Source: Beijerinckiaceae bacterium (lineage in GTDB: Bacteria; Pseudomonadota; Alphaproteobacteria; Rhizobiales; Beijerinckiaceae). Taken from it: a stretch of DNA of 64,000 bases. The DNA is taken from assembly GCA_947475995.1 (NCBI GenBank), contig CANJNI010000016.1:1-64000 (forward strand), written 5' to 3'. Below the pieces are notes generated by a model. It saw nothing but the letters and a program-made list of their open reading frames with translations, was not told the origin of the DNA and searched no databases. Positions 14,107 through 33,813 of this stretch are shown one piece after another. The translations under genes were made by a program, and so were the position numbers. The number at the start of each line of letters is the position of its first letter. Within the stretch, counting starts at the first letter, position 1.

Positions 14107-14124
14107 CTGTCGTGCCTCTGTCAC
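14107..14124 (+). promoter_or_regulatory. PHO box (PhoB site) upstream of the CHAD gene
   Basis: CTGTCGT GCCT CTGTCAC: two 7-bp half-sites exactly 11 bp apart, close to the E. coli PHO consensus CTGTCAT-N4-CTGTCAC, in the same orientation as the gene and 44 bp before its GTG start. This spacing leaves room for a -10 element and a short leader. Phosphate-starvation control of a polyphosphate-binding-family gene is biologically consistent. Confidence 0.6.
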
Positions 14125-14168: not shown

Positions 14169-15005
14169 GTGAAACGGACAGCGAGCAGTCTCGGTGAAGC
14201 CTGGCAGATGCGCCTGATGGGCGTACTGGAGGAAATTGCGGCGATCGCGGCCAATGACTCTGAGAACGTGGACATCCGTGTTCATGAAATCCGGAAAGCA
14301 GCCAAGCACGGCCGGGCGGTCCTGAAACTTGCGCCGGACGGCCTTCGCGAGCAGGCGCGTCGCCAGCGGGAGACGTTGCGCGAAATGCGTCGTCTCTTCG
14401 GACCCGCCCGGGATGCGCGTGTGGATCTCCAATTGTTCGAACAGTTTTGCGGCAGCCGGAAGTCGGGAAGGCTCGCGGAGGCCGGACAGAAGATCGCGGC
14501 CATCTGCGCCGAACAGGAATCGAAGGTCCCGTCGATGCGGCGGCCCATGCGGGCCGCAGGCAGGATCGCGAAGGACATTCGCGACTGGGACCCCGGGACG
14601 CTTAAATCCGACGACATCATCGAGCGACTGGTCAAGGGCTACAGGAAAGCGCGCGATCTGCTGCCGACCGATGAATCAGCCATCGAGCACCTTCACGACT
14701 TCCGGTCCGCCGTGGTGGACTATCGCTACCAGATGCGGCTGATTGCAGGCCTTCGCGACAAGACAGCCGCACAACGGGAACGGCAGGCGCAGGAGCTTCG
14801 CGAGTCGCTGGGCGAATATCTCGATGTGGAAAGGCTCATCGGGCGTCTGCAAGAGTTCGACATTCCTGCCGACGAGATGAAGCAATTGCGCAAGGGTCAG
14901 CAGAAGCGGCTCAAGACCGCGCTGGCGGATGCAGCCCTGCTGTTCGATCCGAAGCCACGCCTCGTGCGTAAGGATCTGGAGGAAATTTCGGCGGGATGCG
15001 GCTAA
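14169..15005 (+). CDS. CHAD-domain protein (polyphosphate-binding family)
   Basis: 278 residues, nearly all one CHAD domain (conserved histidine alpha-helical domain). The first helix has VHEIRKAAKHGRAVLKL with the family His and basic residues, and the second half repeats it in LHDFRSAVVDYRYQMRL. The domain is very rich in Arg/Lys. CHAD proteins bind inorganic polyphosphate and target polyphosphate granules. There is no attached CYTH triphosphatase domain. The start is a GTG at 14169. A PHO box lies upstream, so induction during phosphate limitation is likely (inference). Confidence 0.85.
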   Translation: MKRTASSLGEAWQMRLMGVLEEIAAIAANDSENVDIRVHEIRKAAKHGRAVLKLAPDGLREQARRQRETLREMRRLFGPARDARVDLQLFEQFCGSRKSGRLAEAGQKIAAICAEQESKVPSMRRPMRAAGRIAKDIRDWDPGTLKSDDIIERLVKGYRKARDLLPTDESAIEHLHDFRSAVVDYRYQMRLIAGLRDKTAAQRERQAQELRESLGEYLDVERLIGRLQEFDIPADEMKQLRKGQQKRLKTALADAALLFDPKPRLVRKDLEEISAGCG

Positions 15006-27776: not shown

Positions 27777-28586
27777 TCAGGGCTCAAGCGGCGGATCGCC
27801 GACGCCGACGACATTCTGGTCGAAGTCGATGTTCGCGCCCGTCATCAATCCGGATTCGGCGGAAGCCAGCCAGGCGCAGGCGCGGGCGACTTCCATCGGG
27901 TCGATCAGGCGGCCGAACGGACGGGTTCGGGCTGCTTCTTCCAGCCAGCCATCCTGCGCGCCGTGGTACTCGCGCATGACGCGCTCCTCGCCGGGCGTAT
28001 TCATCCAGCCGATGTTGAGGCCATTGACCCTGATGCGGTGACGCACCAGCGAATGCGCCACATTGCGGGTGAGCGTTGCGAGCGCGCCCTTGGTGGTCGA
28101 ATAGGCGGTCAGGAAGGCCTGTCCGCCATGGGCCGACATGGACTGGATGTTGATGATCGAGCCTTCGATCTTTTCCCGCACCATGATGCGGGCGGCGCCC
28201 TGTATCAAGAAGAAGGGAGCCTTCACGTTGACGGCGAAAAGCTCGTCGTAGCGCTGCTCGGTCGTGTCGAGGATGTTGCCGCGATCCGTCAGGCCTGCGG
28301 CATTGACCAGAATGTCCACGCGCCCAAACGCCTTGTCGGCGGCGGCCACGACGGCCTGAACGTCGGCCATCACGGCCAGATCGGCCTTCACGAAAAGAGC
28401 TTTCGCGCCGAGCTTTGTAAGCCTTTCGGCGACCGCGGCTCCATTCGCCGCGTTGCGTCCGCAGATGACAATGCCTGAAGCGCCGCGCTCGGCGAAGAGG
28501 GTCGCGATGGCCTCGCCCAGACCCTGCGTCCCGCCGGTGACGATGGCGACCTTGCCGGTCAGACGCGCCAGATCGTTTCGACTCAT
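27777..28586 (-). CDS. SDR-family oxidoreductase
   Basis: 269 residues of the classical short-chain dehydrogenase type. Cofactor motif TGGTQGLGEA at about residue 15, NAAGL, catalytic Ser in NIQSMSAHGG and catalytic YSTTK. It probably uses NAD(P)(H) on an unidentified alcohol/ketone. GGAGG is 8 bp before ATG 28586. It lies 102 bp upstream of uppS on the same strand and is divergent from the phosphatase gene, so it may or may not be transcribed with the envelope block. Confidence 0.92.
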   Translation of the reverse strand: MSRNDLARLTGKVAIVTGGTQGLGEAIATLFAERGASGIVICGRNAANGAAVAERLTKLGAKALFVKADLAVMADVQAVVAAADKAFGRVDILVNAAGLTDRGNILDTTEQRYDELFAVNVKAPFFLIQGAARIMVREKIEGSIINIQSMSAHGGQAFLTAYSTTKGALATLTRNVAHSLVRHRIRVNGLNIGWMNTPGEERVMREYHGAQDGWLEEAARTRPFGRLIDPMEVARACAWLASAESGLMTGANIDFDQNVVGVGDPPLEP

Positions 28587-28678
28587 GTGCAAAATCCTCC
28601 GTGGAGGCGAACAAACCAGAAGGCGACTGCCTGACAAGCCATTTCTTGTGCTATGCGGGTGGCGACAAGGGGGACCGA

Positions 28679-29476
28679 ATGTCGAAAGCCGCCATCAGCG
28701 AACAGGAACTCGCCGCAAGATATCTGGCGCTTCCCGGTCTGGCGCAGGACCTCGGCCATCTGGCCATGGGTTTCTTCAACAATCGCGAGTCCCTCAACAC
28801 CCGCATGAAGGGGACGCAGGACTTCATCACCGAAGCCGACGGCGCGGTGGAAGCGCGCTTCCGGGCGCTGATCGCGTCAGCCTTCCCAGGCGACAGCGTC
28901 ATGGGCGAGGAAATGGGCGGCGGGAATTCCGATCTCCTGTGGATCATCGACCCCATCGACGGCACCGCCAATTTTGCTCGTGGCGACAGGGTCTGGTGCA
29001 TTTCCATCGGTTTCGTGGTGGGAGGCGTTCCGACGCTTGGACTGATCTACGCGCCGGCGCTTGACGAGACCTTCCTGGCGCGACGGGGCGGCGGGGCGAC
29101 CATGAACGGCAAACCGATCCGGGCGGCGGAGACGGACGCCATCGAACAGGCGACGATCGAATTCGGCTGGTCTTCACGCCTGCCGACAAAGGACTATCTG
29201 GATGTGGTCGCAGGGCTTTTCGACACGGGAGCCCATGTGAAGCGCTGCGCGTCGGGCGCGCTCGGCATGGCGCATGTGGCGATGGGCCGGACCGACGCCT
29301 ATGGCGAATTGCACATCAACGCCTGGGATGTGGCCGCCGGGATCGTGATCGCCTCGGAGGCGGGCGCGCGCATCAATGACTTCTGCACGGGCGACTGGCT
29401 GGGCGACGGCAATCCCATTCTGGCGACCACGCCTGCACTTTGGGGCCCGATTTCCAGGGCTTGCGGCGTCCGCTAG
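28679..29476 (+). CDS. Inositol-monophosphatase-family phosphatase
   Basis: 265 residues with the lithium-sensitive phosphatase fold. Metal ligands are in GEEMGGG, the core WIIDPIDGTANFARG and the C-terminal INAWDVAAG. Members hydrolyse inositol-1-phosphate, histidinol phosphate, sugar phosphates or nucleotide phosphates in the cytoplasm; the exact substrate is not readable. AAGGGGG precedes the ATG. It lies 96 bp upstream of an AfuABC-like transporter with PHO half-sites between, which suggests that it dephosphorylates an imported phosphate ester (inference). Confidence 0.9.
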   Translation: MSKAAISEQELAARYLALPGLAQDLGHLAMGFFNNRESLNTRMKGTQDFITEADGAVEARFRALIASAFPGDSVMGEEMGGGNSDLLWIIDPIDGTANFARGDRVWCISIGFVVGGVPTLGLIYAPALDETFLARRGGGATMNGKPIRAAETDAIEQATIEFGWSSRLPTKDYLDVVAGLFDTGAHVKRCASGALGMAHVAMGRTDAYGELHINAWDVAAGIVIASEAGARINDFCTGDWLGDGNPILATTPALWGPISRACGVR

Positions 29477-29514
29477 GTCGGGAACGCCCGAAAACAATTG
29501 TCCGCCAGTCTCAT

Positions 29515-29541
29515 TGACAGGTTTATGACAGTTCGATGACA
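29515..29541. promoter_or_regulatory. Triple PHO half-site (PhoB site) upstream of the AfuABC-like operon
   Basis: TGACA occurs three times at exactly 11-bp spacing (29515, 29526, 29537). On the minus strand the two best units read CTGTCAT AAAC CTGTCAA, almost identical to the E. coli PHO box. The site ends 31 bp before the receptor ATG, with AGGAGG in between. The units point opposite to the transporter gene, which is unusual and the main reason for caution. Confidence 0.6.
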
Positions 29542-29572
29542 TAGGTTTCAGAAGAGTTTTCAGGAGGAACGC

Positions 29573-30613
29573 ATGTCCACCAAAACCACCATGAAATTCG
29601 TCGGCCTCGGCCTTCTCTCGACCCTGCCCTTCATGGCCCCGCAGGCCGCGTCCGGACAGGAACTTGTCGTCTATTGCGGCGTGCAGGAAGAATGGTGCCG
29701 GCCCATGATGCAGGCCTTCGAGCGCAAGACGGGCGTCAAGGTGCTGATGACCCGCAAGTCCGCCGGCGAAATCTACGCGCAGTTGAAGGCTGAAGCCTCG
29801 AACCCGCGCGCCGACGTGTGGTGGGGCGGCACGGGCGACCCCCATCTTCAGGCAGCCGAAGAAGGTCTGACCGAACCCTACAAGCCGGCCATTCTGTCCG
29901 AGCTGCAGCCGTGGGCGTTGAAGCAGGCTGAAACCGCCAAGAACCGCACTGTCGGCATCTATGCGGGCGGCCTCGGCTACTCGTTCAACACCGAGCAGCT
30001 CGCCAAGCGCAAGCTCCCCGAGCCGAAGTGCTGGGCGGACCTCACCAAGGCCGACTACAAGGATGAAGTGCAGGTCGCCGATCCGAATGCGTCGGGCACG
30101 TCCTACAACATGCTCGCCACCATGGTGCAGCTGATGGGCGAACAGCAGGCGTTCGACTACCTGAAAGCCATGCACAAGAACGTCAACCAGTACACCAAGA
30201 CCGGCGCGGCCCCTGCCCGTGCGGTTTCGACCGGCGAGTCCGTAATCGGCATCACCTTCATGCATGATGCGGTGACGGAAGCCGTCAACGGCGCCCCCGT
30301 GAAGGTCGTGTCGCCGTGCGAAGGCACCGGCTACGAGATCGGCTCCATGTCGATCATCAAGGGCGCGAAGAACATGGAAAGCGCCAAGAAGTTCTATGAC
30401 TGGGCGCTGACCCCGGAAGCGCAGGAAATCGGCGCGACCGCCAAGGCCTATCAGGTGCCGTCGAACAAGAACTCCAAGACGCCCCCGCAGGCGCCGAAGC
30501 TCACGGACATCAAGCTGATCGACTACGACTTCGCCAAATACGGCTCGTCGGCTGAACGCACGCGCCTGCTCGCCAAGTGGGATGCGGAAGTCCGCAACGC
30601 ACCGAAGCGGTAA
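29573..30613 (+). CDS. ABC transporter substrate-binding protein, AfuA-like
   Basis: 346 residues: signal peptide ending at AASGQ, then LVVYCGVQEEWCRPMMQAF and the subfamily motif VWWGGTGDPHLQAAEEG. It belongs to the ferric-iron-type (cluster D) receptors, but the GGTGDPHLQAA form and the sizes of all three subunits match AfuABC, shown in Actinobacillus to carry hexose phosphates rather than iron. No conserved pair of iron-binding tyrosines was evident. Two additional cysteines, after YCGV and in EEWC, lie close together near the start. AGGAGG precedes the ATG, and PHO half-sites lie upstream. Confidence 0.85.
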   Translation: MSTKTTMKFVGLGLLSTLPFMAPQAASGQELVVYCGVQEEWCRPMMQAFERKTGVKVLMTRKSAGEIYAQLKAEASNPRADVWWGGTGDPHLQAAEEGLTEPYKPAILSELQPWALKQAETAKNRTVGIYAGGLGYSFNTEQLAKRKLPEPKCWADLTKADYKDEVQVADPNASGTSYNMLATMVQLMGEQQAFDYLKAMHKNVNQYTKTGAAPARAVSTGESVIGITFMHDAVTEAVNGAPVKVVSPCEGTGYEIGSMSIIKGAKNMESAKKFYDWALTPEAQEIGATAKAYQVPSNKNSKTPPQAPKLTDIKLIDYDFAKYGSSAERTRLLAKWDAEVRNAPKR

Positions 30614-30636
30614 GCCTCACCGGCAAGGGGCGTATC

Positions 30637-32763
30637 GTGCGTCGTCGCGTTGCAGACAAAGGCGTAACGGATCTTGCGGCGGCCGCTCTGGCCGCCGTTT
30701 GTTTCGCCGCGACTCCCTGGGCCTTCGTGGGCGATTTTCGCCCCGGCCTGTGGTGGGTGCTGGATGGGCGGTGGCCGATTGCCTTGCCGCTGCTCGCCAC
30801 GGTCGCCATCGGCGTTCTGGCGATGCGAGGCCCCTCGACCGGTCGACTGCGCGCAGCACTCAGCGGCGCGGGCGTATTCTTCCTGCTCGCCTACGGTTTC
30901 TGGCCGGGCCTGTTCGACGGCAAGCCTCCGCTGGCTCTGGGTATCGGCGCGGCGGTTCTTGGCGCGGCCCTGACCTTTCAGGGCGCGCGGGCTCTGGCTG
31001 CCAGCGGGGCCTTCAAGGCCGACCGCTGGGTGGCGACCACGACGGTGACGATCTTCGTCTCGGTGATGCTGTTCGTCTTTTTTCCCGTATGCGCCGCCCT
31101 GGTGAACGCATTCCTCGACCGCACCGGCGCGATCGACCTGCCCCTGGCGGTCTCGCGTTTCACCGCGCGCGACATCTGGTCGGTGGCCTGCCTGACGTCG
31201 GACCAGAATTGCGGCGTCGTCATCAATACGATGTGGCTCGGGATACTGGCCGGCGCCTTCTCGACCTTTCTGGGTCTCGCCTTCGCGCTTCTGGCGCAGC
31301 GCGGCAATCTGAAGAGCACGAAGATTTTCGACGCGCTTTCGGTTCTGCCGATCATTACGCCGCCTTTCGTGATCGCGATGGCGCTGGTGGTTCTGTTCGG
31401 CCGCACGGGCGTGGTGACGACCTTCCTCGACAATTACGCCGGCATTCCCCGTTCGCGCTGGATCTACGGTCTGCCGGGCGTGCTGATCGCGCAGGTCCTG
31501 TCGCAGACGCCCCTGTCCTACATGATCCTGCGCGGCGCACTGCAGGGCATTTCCCCGTCGCTTGAAGAAGCCGCGCAAACGCTGCGCGCCGGGCGCTGGC
31601 ATACGTTCAAGACAGTCACTTGGCCGCTGCTGCGGCCCGCCGTCGCGGCCTCCTGTCTGCTCGGTTTCGTCGAGAGCCTGGCGGATTTCGGCAATCCGGT
31701 GGTGCTCGGCGGATCGTTCGAGGTGCTGTCCACAAAGATCTATTTCGCGGTCGCGGGCGCGCAATACGATCCGGGCCGCTCGGCCATTCTGGCGCTCATC
31801 CTGCTCGCGTTGACGCTGACCGCGTTCTGGTTCCAGACCGTGTGGCTCGGTCGCCGCTCCTACGTCACCGTCACCGGCAAGGGCGACAATGGCGTACCGC
31901 CCAGCCTTCCGGTCGGGCTGCGCCGCGCCGCCATGGGCGTCGTGATCCCCTGGGTGATCCTGACCGTCGCGCTGTACGGCGTGATCATGATCGGCGGCTT
32001 CGTGACCGACATCGGCCGCGGGGCGATGACGCCGACCTTCAAGCATTTCGCGACCGGGTTCGCGATCGAGATGACGCCGCACGGATTGTTCTTCTCGGGG
32101 TCGGCCTGGGACTCGTTCTTCGTCACCGTCGGCGTCGCGGCTGTCGCGGCTCCGATCACCACGCTGGTCGGCATCCTGACCGCCTATGTGCTGAGCCGGC
32201 ACAATTTCATCGGCAAGCGCACCTTCGAATTCGTCACCATGCTGGCCTTTGCGATCCCCGGTACGGTCATCGGCGTCGCCTATGTGTCGGCGTTCAATAC
32301 GCCGCCGGTCGAACTCGCCGGAACGGGCCTGATCCTTGTCATCTGCTTCGTGTTCCGCAACATGCCTGTGGGCGTGCGGGCGGGCATTGCGGCGCTGAGC
32401 CAGATCGACAAGTCGCTCGATGAAGCCTCGACGACTCTCGGGGCCAGCACCGGAACGACCGTGAAGCGCGTGACGATCCCGCTGCTCAAACATGCCATCA
32501 TCGCGACGCTGGTCTTCTCCTTCGTGCACGCAATGACGGCGGTGAGCGCCATCGTGTTCCTCGTGACCGCACGCTACAACATGGCCACGGCCTATATCGT
32601 CGGGCGCGTGGACGCGGGCGAATATCCGCTCGCCATCGCCTATTCGTCGCTGCTCATCGTCTTCATGCTGCTGGTGGTGCTGCTGATCCAGTTGCTCGTC
32701 GGCGAACGCAAGCTCGGACGTCGCGGCGTCGCCGCCAATCCCGTCAATCTCGGAGCCCGCTGA
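30637..32763 (+). CDS. ABC transporter permease, fused double module (AfuB-like)
   Basis: 708 residues with about 14-16 membrane helices. Two BPD_transp_1 modules are fused in one chain; each has an EAA loop for ATPase contact, LEEAAQTLRAGRWHTFKTVT (about residue 310) and LDEASTTLGASTGTTVKRVT (about residue 600). An additional hydrophobic N-terminal region precedes module one. GTG 30637 is chosen because AAGGGG lies 6 bp upstream and 23 bp separate it from the receptor gene. It abuts the ATPase gene with no gap. Confidence 0.88.
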   Translation: MRRRVADKGVTDLAAAALAAVCFAATPWAFVGDFRPGLWWVLDGRWPIALPLLATVAIGVLAMRGPSTGRLRAALSGAGVFFLLAYGFWPGLFDGKPPLALGIGAAVLGAALTFQGARALAASGAFKADRWVATTTVTIFVSVMLFVFFPVCAALVNAFLDRTGAIDLPLAVSRFTARDIWSVACLTSDQNCGVVINTMWLGILAGAFSTFLGLAFALLAQRGNLKSTKIFDALSVLPIITPPFVIAMALVVLFGRTGVVTTFLDNYAGIPRSRWIYGLPGVLIAQVLSQTPLSYMILRGALQGISPSLEEAAQTLRAGRWHTFKTVTWPLLRPAVAASCLLGFVESLADFGNPVVLGGSFEVLSTKIYFAVAGAQYDPGRSAILALILLALTLTAFWFQTVWLGRRSYVTVTGKGDNGVPPSLPVGLRRAAMGVVIPWVILTVALYGVIMIGGFVTDIGRGAMTPTFKHFATGFAIEMTPHGLFFSGSAWDSFFVTVGVAAVAAPITTLVGILTAYVLSRHNFIGKRTFEFVTMLAFAIPGTVIGVAYVSAFNTPPVELAGTGLILVICFVFRNMPVGVRAGIAALSQIDKSLDEASTTLGASTGTTVKRVTIPLLKHAIIATLVFSFVHAMTAVSAIVFLVTARYNMATAYIVGRVDAGEYPLAIAYSSLLIVFMLLVVLLIQLLVGERKLGRRGVAANPVNLGAR

Positions 32764-33813
32764 ATGTCGCGCGCAGCTTCTGTCCGCTTCGAAAAAGTCT
32801 CGCGCCTTTACGGCGACGTTCGCGCCGTGAACGAAGTGTCGTTCGAGGTGCAGGCGGGCACGCTCGTCACCCTGCTTGGACCCTCGGGCTGCGGCAAAAC
32901 CACGACGCTGCGCCTCGTCGCCGGCCTTGAACAGGCATCCAGCGGCAAGATCTTCATCGGCGACGAGGACGTGACGGCGCTCGGCGCCGCAGAGCGCGAC
33001 GTCTCCATGGTGTTCCAGAGCTATGCGCTCTTTCCGCACATGAACGTGATGGACAATGTCATGTATGGCCCGCTCGCGTCCGGCGCGAAAAAGGCCGAAG
33101 CGAAGGAAATGGCGCTCGAGAAGCTCGCGCTGGTCGGCCTCAAGGGCTTCGAGGGACGCCTGCCCTCCGAGCTTTCCGGCGGCCAGCAGCAGCGCGTGGC
33201 GCTTGCCCGCGCCATCGTGCTGGAACCGCGCATGCTGCTCTTCGACGAGCCCCTTTCGAACCTCGACGCGCGCCTGCGCCGCAAGGTGCGGGACGACATT
33301 CGCGATCTCCAGCAGCTGCTGGGGCTGACGGTGCTTTACGTCACGCACGACCAGCAGGAGGCGCTGGCCGTCTCCGACAAGGTGATCGTGATGGACAATG
33401 CGGTGATCGCCCAGCAGGGCGCGCCGCACGATCTCTATGAGCGCCCGCAAAGCCGCTTCCTCGCCGACTTCATCGGCGAATCGAACATCATCGAGGGAAG
33501 CTTCTCGACCTCGGGCGCAGATACGCTGTTCACCGCAGGCGGCGTCACGCTGACGCTCGGTTCCGTCGCCTTCAAGCCCACCGACAAGATGATCGCCATC
33601 CGGCCCGACCGTCTCAAGCTGAGCGCAGGCGGCGACGGCGCCATCAAGGTGCGCCGCCGCGCGTATGTGGGCCATGCGTGGGAATATTCGCTCGACACGC
33701 CCTGGAAGGGCGAGTTGCTGGCCATCGCCCCCGCCCGCCACGAACTGGTTGAAGTCGGAACGAGCGTCGCACTGACGATTGATGCGGGCTCGGCCATTCC
33801 GCTCGGGAGATAG
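32764..33813 (+). CDS. ABC transporter ATP-binding protein (AfuC/FbpC-like)
   Basis: 349 residues. Walker A LLGPSGCGKTT, Q-loop VFQSYALFPHMNV, signature LSGGQQQRVALARAI, Walker B MLLFDEPLSNLDA, switch His in LYVTHDQQEAL, then a C-terminal TOBE-like regulatory domain (about residues 240-349). It energises the fused permease. Its ATG directly follows the permease TGA, so the three genes form one operon. Confidence 0.93.
   Translation: MSRAASVRFEKVSRLYGDVRAVNEVSFEVQAGTLVTLLGPSGCGKTTTLRLVAGLEQASSGKIFIGDEDVTALGAAERDVSMVFQSYALFPHMNVMDNVMYGPLASGAKKAEAKEMALEKLALVGLKGFEGRLPSELSGGQQQRVALARAIVLEPRMLLFDEPLSNLDARLRRKVRDDIRDLQQLLGLTVLYVTHDQQEALAVSDKVIVMDNAVIAQQGAPHDLYERPQSRFLADFIGESNIIEGSFSTSGADTLFTAGGVTLTLGSVAFKPTDKMIAIRPDRLKLSAGGDGAIKVRRRAYVGHAWEYSLDTPWKGELLAIAPARHELVEVGTSVALTIDAGSAIPLGR

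Follow-up and report, generated by a model that had tools for sequence, protein, structure and literature searches.

The AfuABC transporter of Actinobacillus pleuropneumoniae imports hexose and heptose phosphates, and its periplasmic receptor AfuA binds glucose 6-phosphate (G6P) via His205, Asp206 and Glu229, each of them essential, together with Ser37 and Thr150 (PMC4546632). P5PA, a pyridoxal-phosphate receptor (PMC8427247), belongs to the same family; the residue roles used below for both receptors are taken from the accessible parts of these two papers. For inositol, InoEFGK is given as the transporter of Thermotoga maritima (PMC3750489), and the transporters assigned in bacteroids of Rhizobium etli include one named for 'myo-inositol 1-phosphate' (PMC9611204). 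Here we analyse a 64,000-nt stretch of DNA from a Beijerinckiaceae bacterium (the window, positions 1–64,000 of its contig; genome total 4.14 Mb, 96% complete), which carries an afuABC operon of this receptor family behind a gene for a phosphatase of the inositol-monophosphatase (IMPase) family.

We propose that the locus encodes an importer of the AfuABC family whose cargo is a phosphorylated cyclic polyol, an inositol monophosphate being the likeliest, together with its own IMPase-type phosphatase, and we put the probability of this reading, whose ligand is deduced from sequence and gene context, at roughly 0.64. The proposal draws on gene order and gene families, on kept pocket residues, on a PhoB-type box and its genome-wide company, and on linkage to and co-occurrence with inositol-catabolism (iol) genes. 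The receptor would capture the phosphate ester in the periplasm through its AfuA-type pocket, AfuB and AfuC would bring the ester in intact, and the phosphatase, with inositol monophosphate as its presumed substrate, would release phosphate and inositol in the cytoplasm. The inositol would then enter the iol pathway, whose genes lie on a different contig of the window's genome and next to the transporter in many relatives. The box at the phosphatase/afuA junction would couple the operon to phosphate status, with phosphate starvation presumably raising, rather than lowering, transport. Both halves of the ester, phosphorus and carbon, would probably be used.

Receptor pocket and phosphatase

Between the phosphatase gene and afuA lies a 96-nt gap that contains the three half-sites of the box; afuB and afuC come next. 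All four genes are on the plus strand, the afuC ATG standing immediately after the afuB stop. The AfuB-type permease carries two permease domains on a single chain. The positions of the four genes (Table 1) agree with those of an earlier reading of the window, hereafter the original prediction, and the motif GGTGDPHLQAA that it had picked out was found again in the receptor.

Sequence similarity places the receptor nearer to AfuA than to receptors of the FbpA or phosphonate type: it scored 308 bits against AfuA (4r72), with which it shares 46% identity, 307.7 bits against 8x1a and 259 bits against P5PA, and the next matches were FbpA-type and other iron receptors at no more than 62.3 bits; its score against 4r6y was 38.2 bits. 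This gap, which compares overall similarity, and the kept sugar contacts described below make a ferric iron importer (FbpABC), the usual annotation of such genes, extremely improbable. The best NCBIfam match of the ATPase is nevertheless of the ferric type, under its cut-off (Table 1), and 8x1a, whose ligand was left unchecked, is titled an iron(III) receptor; 4r72 is iron-titled too, yet it binds G6P. A 2-aminoethylphosphonate importer of the PhnS2/PhnU2/PhnT2 type would account for the best NCBIfam matches of the receptor (PhnS2, 235.6 bits) and the permease (PhnU2, Table 1) and for the second match of the ATPase (PhnT2, 339.2 bits). It is very improbable as well, because all three scores lie far under the curated cut-offs (392.75, 593.25 and 457.7, respectively), the AfuA structures score better, and the neighbours are a phosphatase and iol genes.

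Which ligand would the pocket hold? A comparison with AfuA, proposed in the original prediction, yielded an AfuA-type pocket with its contacts kept save Ser37: Tyr103, Thr150, His205, Asp206 and Glu229 of AfuA correspond to Y130, T176, H231, D232 and E250, and the phosphate contact Ser37 is replaced by A64. An S37A variant of AfuA still binds G6P, with a Kd of 0.9 versus 0.023 µM (PMC4546632). We then set an iol group of 35 receptors (34 from iol-linked loci, two from one genome, and that of the window) beside 58 others. The equivalents of His205, Asp206 and Glu229 are kept in 34, 35 and 35 of the 35, respectively, and in 58/58 of the others. Almost every receptor of the iol group departs from AfuA at four further positions, with Gln for Thr11 (34/35), Ser for Gly36 (35/35), Ala for Ile186 (33/35) and Ala for Tyr207 (34/35). 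The same residues are common in the 58 non-linked receptors (Gln11 in 45, Ser36 in 55, Ala186 in 24, Ala207 in 34); thus, they mark a larger clade and prove no ligand.

We consider it unlikely that the locus encodes a hexose- or heptose-phosphate importer like Actinobacillus AfuABC, in which case the phosphatase would act broadly on sugar phosphates and the iol genes would be neighbours for another reason. The retention of the residues essential for G6P and the identity to AfuA speak for such a transporter, whereas the linkage and co-occurrence with iolG, iolD, iolE and iolC presented below and, with the reservation just given, the four altered pocket positions speak against it. Free inositol was considered as a ligand and is not favoured, since the pocket retains most of its phosphate-side residues and the locus includes a phosphatase.

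The phosphatase contains, as read by eye, EEMGG, DPIDGT and WDVAAG, which we take to be its catalytic motifs. Its assignment as a HisN histidinol-phosphatase is not supported (TIGR02067, 150.9 bits, under the curated cut-off of 275.15). Four other IMPase-family matches in the window's genome are 26–34% identical to it, and the afuABC-linked phosphatases separate from the genome's other matches in a tree of 70 sequences (SuhB root, support values not shown).

The genome also holds a large receptor set, with 39 places that match the receptor strongly or weakly. In relatives, paired afuA-type receptor genes lie close together at L012, L014, L053, L059 and L061 (labels denote our named loci), and the members of a pair possibly differ in ligand.

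Linkage to inositol catabolism

A contig search for receptor relatives returned at least 566, and the best 80 were analysed as named loci, with flanks of afuABC fetched up to 5 kb (thresholds: IMPase ≥100 bits, short-chain dehydrogenase/reductase (SDR) ≥150 bits, iol ≥140 bits). An IMPase relative lies within the flanks at 61/80 loci and an SDR relative at 22/80. At 31/80, iolG, iolD, iolE or iolC is present (27, 13, 14 and 9 loci, respectively); four of these supplied the iol query proteins and so match by construction. Where the locus spans at least 9 kb (n = 63), the counts are 52 for IMPase and 27 for iol. The iol representatives that were scanned exceed their curated cut-offs (given in parentheses): IolG with 446–449 bits (355), IolC with 381 (300), IolD with 900 (715) and IolE with 410 (290).

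The arrangement reads iolC / SDR-iolG-IMP-afuABC-Na/Pi in Bosea (L054), where IMP is the phosphatase and Na/Pi a Na/Pi transporter relative, iolE-iolD / iolG-SDR-IMP-afuABC in Roseomonas and Falsiroseomonas, and iolE, iolG, IMP, afuABC in a Burkholderiales metagenome-assembled genome (L047). On a receptor tree of 94 tips, 33 of them iol-linked, the linkage requires 8 state changes versus 27.5 for shuffled labels; it is clustered by lineage yet present in several lineages. Because of this neighbourhood with iol genes, inositol phosphate is favoured over hexose phosphate. The original prediction had proposed a phosphate-starvation module importing an intact phosphate ester through a transporter like the hexose-phosphate carrier AfuABC: the PhoB-type box, the AfuA-type receptor and the IMPase-family phosphatase stand, the last with its counterparts in 61 of the 80 relatives, while hexose phosphate gives way to the inositol phosphate that the neighbourhood indicates.

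Na/Pi transporter relatives are found near afuABC, on either side, at 10/80 loci (L046, L049, L054, L060, L069, L072, L073, L077, L105 and L106), and both of those scanned (L060, L105) carry a PhoU domain; such neighbours would fit phosphate release inside the cell. Receptors on Burkholderiales-labelled contigs (L037, L039, L041, L043, L047, L051 and L055) are 71–76% identical to that of the window, as close as many alphaproteobacterial ones, which suggests transfer of the receptor between bacterial classes.

Co-occurrence was examined at three levels. Among 51 genomes of the genus, four hold an orthologous receptor (the window's genome G000, G034, G035 and G042), and IolG scores over the cut-off in exactly those four (Fisher p 4e-6). 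IolD does so in three of the four and in no other genome of the genus. In G034, G035 and G042 the sole IolG over the cut-off directly precedes the phosphatase, and at L123, L124 and L125, from three genomes of the same genus, iolG lies between the SDR gene and the phosphatase gene, with an iolC-like stretch also beyond the SDR gene at L123 and L125. Among 101 relatives, IolD is over the cut-off in 8/13 with the receptor (E < 1e-90) versus 9/88 without (p 1e-4), a partial match under the cut-off (G092) being counted as without IolD. Finally, we picked 30 of the 49 loci without a flanking iol gene, mostly from isolates and covering 29 genomes; IolD is over the cut-off elsewhere in 27/29 of these, a figure to be read with the base rate of IolD in these genera not measured. 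As nine of the 29 genomes are Microvirga and four Mesorhizobium, they are not independent.

In the window's own genome, iolC, iolD, iolE, iolB, iolA (mmsA) and iolG stand in a row on contig C19, and this row holds no transporter. Two models were tried for an inositol importer and neither turned one up in this 96% complete genome: no Peripla_BP_4 receptor was found (InoE and other importer families were left untested), nor any sugar porter over the cut-off (best 123 bits versus 237.8). Divergent from the iol operon lies an open reading frame (ORF; L138 4484–5332, minus strand) with, by eye, the look of an RpiR-type regulator; it gave no NCBIfam match at E 1e-20.

Several observations weigh against inositol phosphate as the ligand: (i) the AfuA phosphate contact Ser37 is lost and, because the contacts essential for G6P are kept, hexose phosphates stay among the candidate ligands; (ii) iolG is absent from this spot at the window locus, and 49/80 loci have no iol gene in the fetched flanks; (iii) within the genus, G034 lacks an IolD over the cut-off, and G010, despite its 52% relative of the receptor, lacks an IolG over the cut-off; (iv) 5/13 of the AfuA-positive relatives are without IolD over the cut-off, and the order sample by itself gives a weak association (IolD in 5/8 versus 9/42, p 0.03); and (v) no beta-propeller phytase was found in the genome, other phytase families not having been searched.

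The PhoB-type box

The three TGACA half-sites described in the original prediction start at 29515, 29526 and 29537 and do have an exact 11-bp spacing. On the minus strand, from 29542 to 29514 and counting the flanking bases of the 7-bp half-sites, they read ATGTCAT-CGAA-CTGTCAT-AAAC-CTGTCAA. A loose box pattern (≤3 mismatches) gave 9 sites in the window versus 9.64 expected; as it is not enriched, our claims rest on exact or near-exact sites, and this site is the only exact match within the window. The exact core TGTCAT-N5-TGTCA (TGTCATNNNNNTGTCA) occurs 5 times in the genome, whereas the reversed pattern has 0 occurrences. Of the five, an overlapping pair makes up the afuA site; the others precede pstS by 107 nt, phoU (then phoB) by 96 nt and phoR by 88 nt. 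PhoB, PhoU, PstS and PPK2 score above their curated cut-offs, PhoR slightly under (311.2 versus 334.2 bits). Thus, the afuA site is of the kind found at this organism's phosphate genes and, on motif and company, is classed as a PhoB-type box. The phoR gene is divergent from ppk2, and the box between them overlaps the start as read for ppk2 (L120 2135–4159, G000:C5), so that the polyphosphate kinase PPK2 may share the phoR box.

Is the box found in related operons? Scoring their upstream regions, as had been proposed, gave a divided answer, with strong boxes in a few operons and none in most. Across 92 upstream regions, with the start codons of relatives assigned in this analysis, 5 rows had ≤2 mismatches (L010 and L095 are one place) and 9 rows had 3; 15 rows reached a shuffle p of ≤0.03, including two duplicate pairs, and the mean p was 0.52. 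A box search of 961,553 bases found 17 sites versus 1 in the reversed sequence. Of the 17, 4 belong to pho loci included deliberately and 9 fall at the starts of SDR, phosphatase or afuA genes (seven starts in all); the other 4 are situated elsewhere (L040, L049, L055 and position 14107 of the window). Near the afuA ATG, boxes run forward at 21 nt (L123) and 26 nt (L095) and reversed at 29 nt with a weaker one at 18 nt (L039), and at 14 nt, also weaker (L124). L110 has a reversed box 84 nt before afuA, L123 a further box at its SDR start and L053 a forward box upstream of the phosphatase gene. The box is absent at the same-genus orthologue L008 (the same as L125), with 6 mismatches. Strong boxes (≤2/14 mismatches) stand at SDR, phosphatase or afuA starts in 6 of at most 91 distinct operons, a rarity that counts against our reading; the afuABC operon is likely tied to PhoB, though patchily.

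Does the box activate the operon? It points away from afuA, a weak point that the original prediction had itself named, and it adjoins the ribosome-binding site, 30 nt from the afuA ATG. In this it is unlike the boxes of pstS, phoU and phoR, which run forward to their genes from 88–107 nt away, and both features count against activation. PHO boxes consist of 11-nt direct repeat units, at which the regulator activates or represses, according to the accessible part of a review (PMC4415409). The box could then repress or road-block afuABC, or drive an antisense transcript into the phosphatase gene, an alternative that we regard as doubtful but worth serious attention. Besides the orientation and the distance, it would accommodate the strong boxes of relatives 21–29 nt from the afuA ATG (L123 and L095 forward, L039 reversed) and a GACAAT 11 nt beyond the last minus-strand repeat. 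It fits less well with the forward box upstream of the phosphatase gene at L053, with the distance of the reversed box at L110 and with physiological logic, which favours activation. Moreover, neither strand of 28560–29620 gave a match to a sigma-70-type promoter, and the single terminator-like match there, which covers the box on the minus strand, is no better than chance. We keep activation of the importer under phosphate starvation as a tentative reading.

A second PhoB-like box lies in the window at 14107–14124 on the plus strand, with 2/14 mismatches, 44 nt before an ORF (14169–15005, plus strand) with a CHAD domain (PF05235, 60.6 bits). CHAD proteins are associated with polyphosphate.

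Locus layout and comparison with known systems

Table 1. Features of the locus, with the matches on which each assignment is based.
Feature	Positions	Strand	Evidence
SDR-family dehydrogenase, NCBIfam PRK06198 type	27777..28586	-	NF004847 410 bits, cut-off 240 (scanned from 28580)
Inositol-monophosphatase-family phosphatase	28679..29476	+	PF00459 182.8 bits, cut-off 27
PhoB-type box, three 7-bp half-sites at 11-bp spacing	29514..29542	-	exact motif
afuA-type periplasmic receptor	29573..30613	+	AfuA contact residues kept, structure-sequence matches
afuB-type fused permease	30637..32763	+	PF00528 in two stretches; PhnU2 248.2 bits, under cut-off 593.25
afuC-type ATPase	32764..33813	+	PF00005 and TOBE_2; NF008513 ferric-type 360.6 bits, under cut-off 496

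The SDR gene is divergent from the phosphatase gene. Among solved structures, the SDR best matches one with the title versicolorin reductase (355.9 bits), a poor guide to its substrate.

Much of the organic phosphorus of soils and sediments is present as inositol phosphates, and secreted phytases are the usual explanation for how bacteria exploit them. If our reading is true, a module of importer, phosphatase and catabolic pathway would be a second route, in which the ester is taken in intact, split inside the cell and made to yield both phosphorus and carbon. We also lean slightly towards extending this reading to a whole clade of proteobacterial AfuA-type ('iron(III)') transporters: its members would be dedicated to importing inositol monophosphate, would work with a cytoplasmic inositol monophosphatase and supply the iol pathway, and in some lineages would be linked to PhoB. 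Many receptors annotated as iron transporters would thereby gain a function, and the reading directly predicts the receptor ligand and the phosphate response. Our literature search, with most subscription papers outside its scope, returned no AfuA-type inositol-phosphate importer, and none is named in the accessible parts of PMC12482443 and PMC11065229; titles and beginnings of abstracts on afuA with phosphate starvation or PhoB report no PhoB control of afuABC.

How does the locus compare with its closest counterparts? Like AfuA, the window receptor keeps the essential sugar contacts and a Ser-Gly-Thr phosphate contact, and unlike AfuA it has Ala for Ser37, Gln for Thr11, Ser for Gly36, Ala for Ile186 and Ala for Tyr207. 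The upstream IMPase-family gene, the PhoB box and the iol genes beside many relatives set it apart from Actinobacillus AfuABC, whose own neighbours were left unexamined. P5PA has the Ser-Gly-Thr phosphate contact and Gln at position 11, but carries Ala where AfuA has Asp206 and Glu229; the window receptor keeps both acids.

InoEFGK of T. maritima shares the proposed substrate and the link to inositol catabolism (sequences were not compared); according to work by Rodionova in 2013 it reportedly prefers inositol phosphate. It is of the CUT1 type with separate permeases, unlike afuABC, and we know of no phosphatase or PhoB link for it. Since InoEFGK is, on this account, an inositol-phosphate importer, the kind of importer is already known, and afuABC, if our reading is true, would be its second type, one that brings a phosphatase of its own and a tie to PhoB.

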